From the IMG/VR virus record IMGVR_UViG_3300006334_000008, positions 1 to 34,197 of that record: DNA of 34,197 bases. One strand, 5' to 3'. Shown in pieces: positions 2,706-12,251 of the stretch. How positions within the stretch are numbered: the stretch's first letter is position 1; every line of letters starts with the position of its first letter. This DNA comes from a virus. The notes beneath the pieces were generated by a model. That model made no database searches, had not been told where the DNA came from, and was given only the letters and a program-made list of their open reading frames with translations. The translations under genes and the position numbers were made by a program.

Positions 2706-2748
2706 AGTCAGCCAGTGTACGCAGACTTTGTCGCGTACCTAGCTGACT
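2706..2748 (-). terminator. Hairpin at the terS stop codon (weak terminator)
   Basis: AGTCAGC (2706-2712) pairs with GCTGACT (2742-2748), and inside it GTACGC (2717-2722) pairs with GCGTAC (2733-2738), leaving a 10-base loop. It overlaps the terS stop codon (2747-2749). No T-run follows on the minus strand, so it may be an attenuator or RNA-stability element and not a full intrinsic terminator. Confidence 0.45.
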
Positions 2749-3127
2749 AGGACAAGTCTATACTAACGGCTATGTCGCCAGCTCTCATGGTCAGTTGGCG
2801 GTCAGGAGCCTTGTAGCCTGCTCTGTCTAAGATGTCTTTGCTTGCTTCTAGCTGCACGTACTCGGACTTGGCTCCTTTTGCCAACTGAACAAGCTTTGCG
2901 CTAGCAACCGTAGCATTCAGCCCGAGCGTCTCGCCTATTCGTTCCATCATGTACATCTGCACATGCGGCAGGCGCAAAGCTTTGCTGGCTGTCACTCTCC
3001 CGCTTTCGCCGTCTGCGTAACCTGCCAAACGAGCGGCCTCTGTGATACTGCATCCATTTGCTACAAGCGCATCAACTAAGGCCGCTTGCTTGGTGGTTAC
3101 TGGACGCACTTTCGCTATGTCGTTCAT
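2747..3127 (-). CDS. terS: Terminase small subunit (TerS-like)
   Basis: A 126-aa protein with an N-terminal helix-turn-helix of terminase small-subunit type: TKQAALVDALVANGCSITEA followed by ARLAGY, then an all-helical middle suited to oligomerisation and an acidic end. TerS recognises phage DNA and positions TerL for packaging. On the circular map it is the first gene of the leftward region, ahead of TerL by about 3.7 kb. The ATG at 3127 has an AGG about 9 bases upstream. A TTGACA promoter at 3167-3195 serves it. Confidence 0.8.
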   Translation of the reverse strand: MNDIAKVRPVTTKQAALVDALVANGCSITEAARLAGYADGESGRVTASKALRLPHVQMYMMERIGETLGLNATVASAKLVQLAKGAKSEYVQLEASKDILDRAGYKAPDRQLTMRAGDIAVSIDLS

Positions 3128-3166
3128 TGATACTACCTATTCTTACCCCCCCTTGTGTTCCCCCCC

Positions 3167-3195
3167 AATATGGATGGGGCTATTTTGCTTGTCAA
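3167..3195 (-). promoter_or_regulatory. Sigma70-type promoter for terS
   Basis: On the minus strand, -35 TTGACA (3195-3190), 17-base spacer, -10 CATATT (3172-3167). The predicted start falls around 3160, inside one of two G7 tracts (minus strand, 3166-3160 and 3152-3146), so the terS leader RNA would begin G-rich and could form a quadruplex-like fold. Confidence 0.55.
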
Positions 3196-3419
3196 CGCAC
3201 AAAGGCAAAGTGCCAGCCTGCTCGTGTCAGTCCCTTTCTGATGGCTGACGTAAGGCGGCAGATTTTGTCACTGTTCTAGGGACTGACGTAGAGCAGCCGC
3301 GCTGCAGCCAGAGGCGGATACCAGTTTAGCCTGTCAATAGACCGCAAGGACGTTCATTCTCGTGCGTAAGCTCGTGGTCAATTTTCTTCCATGCTTTACT
3401 CACTTCTTGGAGTTTTACA

Positions 3420-3500
3420 ATGACCTACGACAGTGCTTTCGTCTTCAGCGGCTGGGCATCGCCAGCAGTTGGCAGCTTCGACATAGCATGTCCGCTTTGA
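3420..3500 (+). CDS. Possible 26-aa leader peptide
   Basis: ATG at 3420 follows TTGGAG with 8 bases between, and the frame runs 26 codons (MTYDSAFVFSGWASPAVGSF...) to TGA. The ribosome-binding site is good, but the start codon lies beside a predicted helix (3372-3380/3421-3430) within the structured region, so it may be fortuitous. Confidence 0.2.
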   Translation: MTYDSAFVFSGWASPAVGSFDIACPL

Positions 3501-3524
3501 CAGCAACGATCCAGTTTGTATCCG
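3497..3524 (+). promoter_or_regulatory. Weak candidate early promoter
   Basis: TTGACA at 3497-3502, 16-base spacer, TATCCG at 3519-3524. Transcription would begin near 3530, at the 11-bp hairpin 3524-3578. The -10 is poor. The TTGACA can also pair with CTGTCAA at 3331-3337, so it may instead be part of the RNA fold. Confidence 0.3.
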
Positions 3525-3578
3525 ACAGAATTCATGTGCAAGTGTAGCGGAGTACGCACACGCGCTTTGGATTCTGTC
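3524..3578 (+). other. Extended hairpin in the structured region
   Basis: GACAGAATTCA (3524-3534) pairs with TGGATTCTGTC (3568-3578), 11 bp with one U.G. It continues directly into TGTGC/GCACA (3535-3539/3556-3560) and a small GTA/TAC tip closing a GCGGAG loop. The only long asymmetry is a 7-base bulge at 3561-3567. This is the most regular local stem in the gap. Confidence 0.6.
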
Positions 3579-3709
3579 CTATATTCCCCTGCAGTAAACT
3601 GAAAATGGCAGCATCCTACAAAAAAGCCACTTCAAAGTGCATAAATCGTGAGGACTCTTTCACCAGCGCATCAATTTGCTAAGACATTTGGAGCAACTTC
3701 TGCGTTTTG

Positions 3710-3986
3710 CAAGACTAGGTTCAAGACACAACCTGTACCCAGACAGCGACGTAAGGCTGCCACAATCCCGCCCTGCCATCCAGCAACTTCCGTCTGGCTT
3801 GTTCCCCCTGTACTGGTAGGTTGTGCGTAGCTGGTTTGTGGTTGTGCGGACAGGGGGCTGGATGCTTGGCTTGCAAGTGTTCAGCCAGGCATCCCTGTTT
3901 GATTGACGGCTGTTCGCCGATGCCAGTTCGAGAAGACGCGCAGCTTTGCTGGACAGCATTGCGGGATGGTGGCAGGCCTAGTCTTG
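3710..3986 (+). other. 277-nt RNA domain closed by a 10-bp helix
   Basis: CAAGACTAGG (3710-3719) is the exact reverse complement of 3977-3986. A CAGC/GCTG hairpin (3744-3747/3756-3759) and the 9-bp helix 3772-3780/3968-3976 sit directly inside, giving a three-way junction. Further in are the 3804/3857 helix, the 12-bp 3860-3894 hairpin, and small stems at 3907-3919 and 3941-3951. Two copies of GGTTGTGCG 21 bases apart (3819, 3840) lie in the 3804-3857 loop. Confidence 0.55.
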
Positions 3987-4035
3987 TTCTGGCTACAGAA
4001 CGTATCTTAAACCTAGGCAAAACGGAGAAGTTGAA

Positions 4036-4482
4036 ATGTCTAAGCAAATTGAAACACTGATAAAAGAGTACGATTTATACACTTTGAAGATGGCTGTAGC
4101 ATGCTACCATTCAGGGGAATATAACAGAATCAACAAAGCGCGTGATGCGTGCTACACTAGCAATAATTCTATCGAATACAAACATGGTCTTATGCTAGAT
4201 GTCAAAGCGGACATGGCAAGTCTCAGACAGCAACTGCTGGACGATGAAGCCACTGAAGGGAAAGGCACTATCGTAGGTGTAAAACTTTCCAAGAAGCTCG
4301 ATATCTTCAAAAGCATGGAAGAAGAATTGGCAGAGCTTGAAGATACGCACAAGAATGATCGTGCGGTCTATAAGAAATTGACAGGCGAAACATGGAATCC
4401 GCCAAGAAAGTCTGGCTCCAACACGTCTGCAAGTCAGTCCGAGCTAGAACAGATTGACAAAATCTTAGCCAAGTCAGCCTAA
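4036..4482 (+). CDS. Hypothetical 148-aa early protein
   Basis: First early protein gene, directly behind the structured RNA region, with GGAG 8 bases before the ATG. The sequence is soluble and helical: an N-terminal YHSGEYNRINKARDACY segment, then probable coiled coil around 50-115 (KKLDIFKSMEEELAELEDTH) and a Ser-rich tail. No family recognised. As the first expressed gene, flanked by a strong terminator downstream, it forms its own transcription unit and may be a host-takeover or regulatory protein, but nothing in the sequence proves this. Confidence 0.8.
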   Translation: MSKQIETLIKEYDLYTLKMAVACYHSGEYNRINKARDACYTSNNSIEYKHGLMLDVKADMASLRQQLLDDEATEGKGTIVGVKLSKKLDIFKSMEEELAELEDTHKNDRAVYKKLTGETWNPPRKSGSNTSASQSELEQIDKILAKSA

Positions 4483-4489
4483 GTATCAG

Positions 4490-4523
4490 AAAGGGACAGT
4501 CGATCAGGCTGTCCCTTTTTTTT
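4490..4523 (+). terminator. Strong intrinsic terminator
   Basis: AAAGGGACAG (4490-4499) pairs perfectly with CTGTCCCTTT (4509-4518) around a 9-base loop, and a run of eight T (4516-4523) follows. This ends the transcript carrying the RNA region and the 148-aa gene, so the genes from 4561 on need another promoter or antitermination. Confidence 0.9.
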
Positions 4524-4560
4524 GTGCTTATGACTATGGGGCAACACAAGGGAGCAGCGT

Positions 4561-11030: not shown

Positions 11031-11362
11031 ACAGGGAGGATATATTAGCATTTGCTAGTCAGGCCGTTGCTGAACGTGGTCAAAACTACGGCAAGCCGAG
11101 CGAAAACTTTGAGCGCATTGCTGGTTTATGGTCAAGCTACACTGGCTATGAATTTAACATTGAAGACGTAGGCATTATGATGATGCTAGTTAAGATAGCT
11201 AGACTTATGGAAGCACCACATCATACAGATAGCTGGGTAGATATTGCAGGCTATGCTGCTGTTACCGCCGAAGCGATAGCAGATAGTCTAAATAATCAGC
11301 CCCTTCCTGTGGATCAACAAAGCAATGTGTCCAGTTTGTCGGAGACATTGAATGGGGATTAA
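11027..11362 (+). CDS. Conserved phage protein, DUF6378-like
   Basis: A 111-aa protein. RGQNYGKPSENFERIAGLWS, DVGIMMMLVKIARL and HTDSWVDIAGYAA match a small conserved phage family I recall as DUF6378, an all-helical fold with conserved Asp/Glu. The arrangement resembles MazG/dUTPase-like nucleotide hydrolases, but that is unproven. Function unknown. Last rightward gene: the family core ends near residue 85, and the tail overlaps the end of the opposite-strand phosphoesterase gene by 101 bp. Confidence 0.8.
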   Translation: MNREDILAFASQAVAERGQNYGKPSENFERIAGLWSSYTGYEFNIEDVGIMMMLVKIARLMEAPHHTDSWVDIAGYAAVTAEAIADSLNNQPLPVDQQSNVSSLSETLNGD

Positions 11363-12251
11363 TGATTTGAAAAATAGCTTGTCCAAAGTTTTGTTGATCA
11401 AATCCTTTGACCATAGCATAAGTGTCATGGAACTTGTAACCTCGACAACGAGCAAGCCAAGCTGTTGCTTTCTTTTCCACGTTCTCGATTTGCGCCAAGC
11501 CCCAATTATGCCTGTGACCACTAATGTACAAGTCGGCGTGACCCTTGAACTTAGCCATTTTATTTTGGGCATGAAGCGCATTCCATTGGCTGTGTCCAGC
11601 CATGTCGTGCGCCGCATGTATTCTACACTCTCTGCCATTTGGAAACCGAAGACAGATTCTAGCCTCCCAATCTTCACGAATGGTGTGACCAGACGTAATC
11701 CATTTCAGCGGGTCTCCCGCGCCAGACCACATGTCATGGTTGCCGCCAATGAGAATAAGCGGATTCATCTCGTTTATCAGCCACTCAACTAACTTCCACG
11801 CTGTTTTGTGGGATGTGTCCTGTTCGCTGTACAATCGCCCCAGACGCCCAACCCAGTTATTCTGGTAGTCACCTACCGAGCATCCATAGATGTGCGTGTG
11901 TGAGGCTATTATGGACAAATGATGGCGTAATGAATCCCAATCGCAATAATTATCATCAACATGTGGGTCACCCAGCCATAACAATCCAATAGGATCATCT
12001 GACTGCATGTCTACATTATACCATTTTGTTGCGTCTTTATGAGCCTTGCGCTTTTGAAAACGCAGATGAAGATGATTAACTATGTCTTCAACAGGCAAAT
12101 CATCTTCTGGTATTTCTGGTAAGATGTATGATTTTTGTTTTGACTTTTGCAGTTCTCGGTAGAACTTGCTCTTTGACATTCCTAAAGCATCTGCTGCTTT
12201 TTCTATTGTGCCAAATTCTTTGTATGCTTCTTCAATGTTATGTTTGCCCAT
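11262..12251 (-). CDS. Metallophosphoesterase with N-terminal HTH
   Basis: A 329-aa protein. Residues 5-38 (FGTIEKAADALGMSKSKFYR) form a helix-turn-helix. From 85 on is a calcineurin-type phosphoesterase: GDPH (Asp95, His97), VGDYQNN (Asp128), GGNHD (170-173), a middle His near 215, and GHRH (245-248). It would hydrolyse phosphodi/monoesters using two metals, acting on nucleic acid or nucleotides; the substrate is unknown. It is the last leftward gene, after the lysozyme (14-bp overlap), and converges on the early operon. Confidence 0.85.
   Translation of the reverse strand: MGKHNIEEAYKEFGTIEKAADALGMSKSKFYRELQKSKQKSYILPEIPEDDLPVEDIVNHLHLRFQKRKAHKDATKWYNVDMQSDDPIGLLWLGDPHVDDNYCDWDSLRHHLSIIASHTHIYGCSVGDYQNNWVGRLGRLYSEQDTSHKTAWKLVEWLINEMNPLILIGGNHDMWSGAGDPLKWITSGHTIREDWEARICLRFPNGRECRIHAAHDMAGHSQWNALHAQNKMAKFKGHADLYISGHRHNWGLAQIENVEKKATAWLARCRGYKFHDTYAMVKGFDQQNFGQAIFQIINPHSMSPTNWTHCFVDPQEGADYLDYLLSLRR

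Follow-up and report, generated by a model that had tools for sequence, protein, structure and literature searches.

An early phage gene and its inverted copy form a 1.4-kb rod beside terS, a candidate large antisense RNA

What fills the long non-coding gap that separates the first early gene of a marine-type phage from terS, the gene of its small terminase subunit, and in which form is it selected? The window analysed here, that is, the whole 34,197-nt stretch of the virus record IMGVR_UViG_3300006334_000008, had earlier been read from its letters and open reading frames (ORFs) alone. That sequence-only reading placed a candidate large structured RNA in the gap, at 3226-4001. Here we describe the extent of the structure, its conservation, the strand on which it appears to be selected and the nature of the selected molecule.

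RESULTS

The gap and the adjacent gene form one rod

Search of the window against itself revealed an opposite-strand match between 3197-3786 and 4527-3946, with 71% identity over 642 columns. The matched partner, 3946-4527, comprises a leader, the ORF 4036-4482 and a terminator. The copy arm differs from the gene arm by ~60 substitutions and ~45 indels, and it has stops in all three frames and 1-nt indels relative to the relatives L004 and L005, so that no conserved reading frame crosses the gap. Rather than being simply an isolated RNA gene, the gap holds, at 3151-3786, an inverted copy of the adjacent gene whose frame is broken, and the two form one rod of ~1.4 kb (Table 1). The unit spans ~3151-4553, gene included, with its ends at 3151 and ~4551-4553 set by folding, beyond the self-match.

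The minus strand of the 1.4-kb unit folds at -776 kcal/mol, compared with -427 +- 10 kcal/mol for shuffled sequences (z = -33), whereas the plus-strand fold of the same unit reaches z = -20. In the minus-strand fold, 77% of the 1403 nt are paired, with 493 predicted pairs between the gene arm and the copy arm. Arm-to-arm pairs make up 418 of 475, 362 of 380 and 497 of 538 consensus pairs, which describes a single rod.

The helices noted earlier do exist: 3226-3235/3278-3287 and 3710-3719/3977-3986 pair at 10 of 10 positions, the hairpin 3860-3871/3883-3894 at 11 of 12 plus one wobble, and the stem 3524-3534/3568-3578 at 10 of 11 plus one wobble. The gap itself (3128-4035) folds better than its dinucleotide shuffles on both strands (plus, z = -5.0; minus, z = -7.7). 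The long-range helices 3710/3986 and 3772/3968 are the inner end of the inverted repeat that reaches ~4553; 3804/3857 and 3860-3894 are hairpins of the loop, and the remaining helices are local alternatives within the copy arm, where most of those noted lie. The loop varies from 16 to 160 nt across relatives; both of its hairpins are retained in L005 and one is missing in L004.

A gap-tolerant scan found no other rod in the window or in the cultured Pelagibacter phage EXVC031P Hodr, and none at all in MEP301. Self-BLAST of BcepC6B, Ss1, Pmp11 and VA-RY-3 returned short palindromes only, by a method that also missed the rod of Hodr because of its many indels.

Table 1. Features of the rod and its surroundings in the window
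Feature	Positions	Strand	Description
terS (small terminase subunit)	2747-3127	minus	PHROG 51 and 2538
Conserved motif GGGGGGGAACACAAGGGGGGG	3146-3166	minus	Between promoter-like site and terS; distal part rod-paired (helix 1)
Copy arm	3151-3786	minus	Inverted, frame-broken copy of early gene, leader and terminator, in copy sense on the minus strand
Promoter-like site for terS	3167-3195	minus	TTGACA (3195-3190), 17 nt, CATATT (3172-3167); rod base; from consensus scan
Loop at rod tip	3787-3945		Between the arms; two local hairpins (3804/3857 region and 3860-3894)
Gene arm	3946-4553	plus	Leader 3946-4035, ORF, terminator near 4493-4520, short 3' flank
First early gene	4036-4482	plus	148 aa; family A1; predicted coiled-coil hairpin protein

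Genes and motifs around the rod

The rod lies at a divergence point, with the rightward early genes (the 148-aa gene, then an ArdC-type anti-restriction gene) on one side and the leftward terS operon on the other. The model of the 148-aa protein has a pLDDT of 82.6. Searches of Pfam, PHROG and PDB gave no significant match for this protein, and no family rose above the cut-off in Pfam, a library that may lack Oblin. The protein, a predicted coiled-coil hairpin without a family, was set aside as a guide to function. In the consensus scan, the promoter-like site at the rod base reads toward terS, and no consistent rightward site was found; the TTGACA of this candidate promoter is conserved in most relatives.

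The region of the GGGGGGGAACACAAGGGGGGG motif is 92-100% identical over 22-28 nt in many relatives, and the C-rich complement of the motif is present in most loci. With its two G-runs, the motif could be a quadruplex, a terminase site or a regulatory site. Just to the left of terS, the segment 2594-2685, which includes the start of the 2092-2589 gene, is 76-89% conserved in several relatives and may contain a regulatory or packaging element.

A RecE-like exonuclease and an Erf annealing protein are encoded in the window. Neither a DNA polymerase nor an RNA polymerase was recognised among the genes searched. The product of 11262-12251 (minus strand) weakly resembles a calcineurin-like phosphoesterase, annotated by PHROGs as a DNA repair exonuclease. 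SbcD-type nucleases act on hairpins, and a link of this product to the palindrome is conceivable. No tRNA was found in the window; in L005 (3683-3754) and L110 (1770-1840), a lone tRNA gene lies directly downstream of the early gene.

The rod is retained among relatives

Three contigs that are 93-99% identical to the window retain the rod. When the gene family (alignment A1) was used as query, 71 distinct loci with sufficient sequence upstream were recovered, and all 71 have an arm pair at the same position. The arm-pair score was at least 60 in 69 of these 71, compared with a control maximum of 50, and 41 have strong pairs (score of at least 300), most of them covering the entire gene. Of 61 distinct loci found through terS, 51 carry such a repeat on the stretch from terS to the first early gene; in many loci of this set another gene occupies the first early position, and the repeat is present nonetheless. 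In nearly all relatives, the copy covers the start codon as well as the leader. The L086 group, along with a few further relatives, has no long rod here, which counts against our best reading. In L086 (2000-2820) and also in L008, L089, L097 and L015, a different first early gene of 208 aa is found and the ArdC-type gene is shared; the gap of this type, ~800 nt long, contains numerous local hairpins of high stability (-37 to -50 kcal per 100 nt) and no long rod.

Hodr, the only cultured close relative, also carries the rod, and its annotation consists of hypothetical proteins throughout. Its copy arm enters the terS coding sequence, so that terS and gene 022 are complementary and both intact (score 96, compared with 27.9 +- 4.8 and a maximum of 46 for codon-shuffled terS). 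In L058 the copy arm likewise reaches the terS coding sequence (score 98; shuffled maximum 44), while the complementarity is weaker in L018 (55; maximum 48) and marginal in L016. The record of L102 (OQ414635.1) is named EXVC031P Hodr and has locus tags of EXVC032PBaldr, and may mix two phage names. No nucleotide relatives of the gap were found in the phage collection, and tblastn gave no relatives in bacterial genomes.

The two arms change in step

Comparison of genomes whose gene arms are at least 95% alike revealed that the copy differs at 62% of the sites changed in the gene, compared with 4.0% elsewhere; at 85-95% identity the values are 75% and 7.8%. In an alignment of 10 sequences (A2), 99.3% of the cells of the consensus rod are paired and 78 pairs have changed on both sides. 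These changes amount to 254 cells, against 95 in shuffles and with 0 of 500 shuffles reaching the observed value, a significance that the shuffles overstate because the sequences are related and the alignments tested are those from which the structure was taken. Slid-partner controls, which preserve this relatedness, gave at most 31. For the window's own group (A4), 22 two-sided pairs were observed versus 8.1 (0 of 500 shuffles; the same overstatement holds). The hairpin and its covariation are thus strongly supported, and the earlier expectation of a large structure was borne out.

The intervals that contain compensated sites have a median length of 13 nt and end at interruptions common to both genomes, which argues against long conversion tracts. 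Changes in the gene concentrate at third codon positions (205, versus 79 and 70 at the others), indicating that the protein is still under selection. We also considered a decaying pseudogene and rejected it, since the copy tracks the gene and the mismatches are strand-biased.

Substitutions favour pairing of the minus strand

In the gene set, substitutions that keep G-U pairs on the terS strand outnumber those that keep them on the gene strand by 1857 to 386, with 67 loci against 1; the terS set gave 771 to 179, with 49 loci against 1. Many of these loci are related and hence not independent trials; when they are grouped by clade, each wobble class has 11 of 12 in agreement. The bias is also seen in recent changes, both those in the copy only (115:21) and those in the gene only (52:7). 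Every codon position shows it, and the leader shows it less strongly. The fold of the terS (minus) strand is the more stable one in 70 of 71 loci. A G+T mutation bias of the minus strand was rejected as the cause, since neither the loop nor the flanks are G+T rich on this strand.

These patterns clearly point to the minus strand as the selected one, whereas the earlier claim had been that the G.U pairs are valid for plus-strand RNA only; both strands fold, the minus better, and the preference of the whole element is for the minus. Several observations count against a minus-strand reading: Hodr has no strand preference (8:6, with near-equal energies), the preference in the window's own group is modest, the bias is weaker in the leader, and the plus strand is itself stable.

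Mismatch classes agree better with RNA than with DNA

Each of six mismatch classes was set against its mirror on the other strand. G-U is preferred over A-C, G-G over C-C and, less so, U-U over A-A, while single A-G and G-A mismatches have hardly any preference. After correction for opportunity, the class asymmetries correlate with predicted energies at -0.85 for RNA and -0.64 for DNA. A clade bootstrap gave -0.82 and -0.55, with RNA the better in 95%, and the short rods of other members gave -0.78 for RNA and -0.21 for DNA, these without the opportunity correction. With six classes, we take this as moderate though less than decisive evidence that the rod is selected as RNA rather than as single-stranded DNA (ssDNA).

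Analysis of the interruptions revealed 9 perfect runs of at least 16 where 65 were expected, a spacing too even for chance. When G-U was counted as paired, such runs numbered 131 against 176 expected, indicating that the G-U sites interrupt the DNA palindrome yet preserve the RNA helix. We infer that the DNA has been selected against long perfect palindromes, perhaps owing to the RecE-like exonuclease and Erf of the phage.

DISCUSSION

The best explanation, to which we give about even odds (roughly 0.5), is that the selected element is a minus-strand rod of ~1.4 kb, most likely RNA, that would lie antisense to the first early gene and run on into terS. This suggests an undescribed large RNA that is built partly from a protein gene. 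The earlier idea of a long regulatory leader may hold, but for a minus-strand terS transcript. Our proposal for the mechanism is weak. A leftward transcript across the early gene would be antisense to that gene, and the copy arm downstream would make the antisense arm fold back and thereby neutralise it in cis. The rod would then be the structured 5' part of a transcript entering terS and might hold back or restrict the expression of terS and of the leftward late genes. Interruptions by substitutions and indels at intervals of a few bases would keep the palindrome below the lengths usable by RecE/Erf or host nucleases, and many of these interruptions would be such that the RNA still pairs through G-U, which would be a cheap way of breaking the DNA palindrome. 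Against the best reading, no consistent leftward promoter to the right of the rod and gene was found in the 17 loci scanned.

The absence of such a promoter would suit the main rival reading, in which ssDNA is the selected molecule, a possibility that we rate as rather unlikely. The minus-strand hairpin would then have its role when the DNA enters the cell, replicates, recombines or is packaged; it might, for instance, be a single-strand promoter or priming site of the Frpo/ssi kind, a fold-back end or a packaging-initiation signal beside terS. The rod adjoins terS and precedes the ArdC-type gene, its minus strand serves, as in Frpo, as the template for the early genes, and the phage encodes recombination proteins of the RecE and Erf types with no polymerase recognised among the genes searched. 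The mismatches speak on both sides, as G-T is likewise the milder mismatch in DNA, but the classes as a whole agree better with RNA energies. A hairpin of 1.4 kb that includes a whole gene also far exceeds known single-strand promoters, and we know of no tailed phage that injects ssDNA.

It is unlikely that the functional molecule is the RNA of the plus (gene) strand, with the copy as a long 5' leader sequestering the ribosome-binding site and message of the early gene. The substitutions strongly avoid the classes that preserve plus-strand wobble pairs, and the plus strand has the weaker of the two folds in 70 of 71 loci; on the other side, the rod is very stable on this strand too, and the bias is weakest in the leader, which in nearly all relatives is spanned by the copy together with the start codon.

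A slightly less probable reading involves no selected structure at all, only an old inverted duplication homogenised by template switching or gene conversion. Inverted repeats can swap sequence, and hairpin-templated mutation is known. Such exchange would erase indels and mismatches, which are instead shared by relatives around the compensated sites and evenly spaced, and it predicts neither the strand bias and the rarity of C-C, A-A and A-C mismatches nor the recruitment of terS coding sequence in Hodr and L058.

More improbable still is a kilobase rod RNA of the delta-virus or Obelisk type that is encoded by a DNA phage and has a protein gene for one of its arms, an independent RNA entity that would be replicated, packaged or serve as a particle; in some relatives terS and the early gene, both intact, would be mutually fitted, with both arms coding. 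Inverted chimeras are common in amplified metagenomes, but an assembly or amplification artefact is excluded for practical purposes, because the arms are only ~71% identical with patterned changes, and the rod is present in the cultured Hodr genome and, concordantly, in many independent contigs from different samples.

If the rod is indeed RNA, it would represent a new class of large phage RNA in which coding and structural constraints fall on the same bases, and the balance of coding, RNA pairing and DNA-palindrome avoidance would become testable. It would also point to an extra level at which early and late genes are controlled in a group of environmental phages that is widespread and has one cultured member.

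Comparison with known systems

We know of no bacterial or phage system in which a gene and its inverted copy form a kilobase rod, and no case of a whole gene kept complementary to an adjacent inverted copy was found for bacteria or phages in a short search of the open-access literature. Membership in the GOLLD/ROOL size class had been proposed for the gap. Apart from two tRNAs, Rfam gave no match at the gathering score to any family, GOLLD, ROOL, HEARO and introns included, whether in the window or in 11 related loci, and at a relaxed threshold it gave chance matches only; we therefore rejected these memberships. GOLLD, ROOL and OLE are large covarying RNAs, the first two occurring in phages and prophages (PMC12286853). 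Like the rod, they are large, covary and are without known function, but they are multi-branched with pseudoknots, whereas here there is a single rod with a protein gene as one arm. GOLLD and ROOL often lie near tRNA islands, compared with none in the window and the single tRNAs of L005 and L110.

The RNA of hepatitis delta virus is a rod with a coding side. Obelisks are rod RNAs of ~1-1.7 kb with a protein-coding side (PMC11922315). The phage rod shares with both its shape, a size within this range and a coding side. Both are circular RNA replicons, however, whereas the phage rod is encoded in the dsDNA genome of a tailed phage, has no match to a self-cleaving ribozyme in Rfam, and is antisense to the gene on its favoured strand.

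Eukaryotic hpRNA loci co-evolve with their target; bacteria have, to our knowledge, neither Dicer nor an RNAi pathway. In these loci a long hairpin arises from an inverted repeat resembling the target gene (PMC10317233). The phage rod is likewise a hairpin from an inverted gene copy that changes in step with the gene, but hpRNAs feed the RNAi pathway, and in the phage one arm is the functional gene itself. The Frpo/ssi sites of conjugative plasmids are imperfect hairpins ahead of early anti-defence genes, formed by the folded template strand (PMC11541004). The phage rod resembles them as a template-strand hairpin preceding early anti-defence genes; Frpo sites, however, are short and lie on DNA that enters single-stranded, whereas the phage rod extends over ~1.4 kb, includes a gene and has mismatches that fit RNA better.
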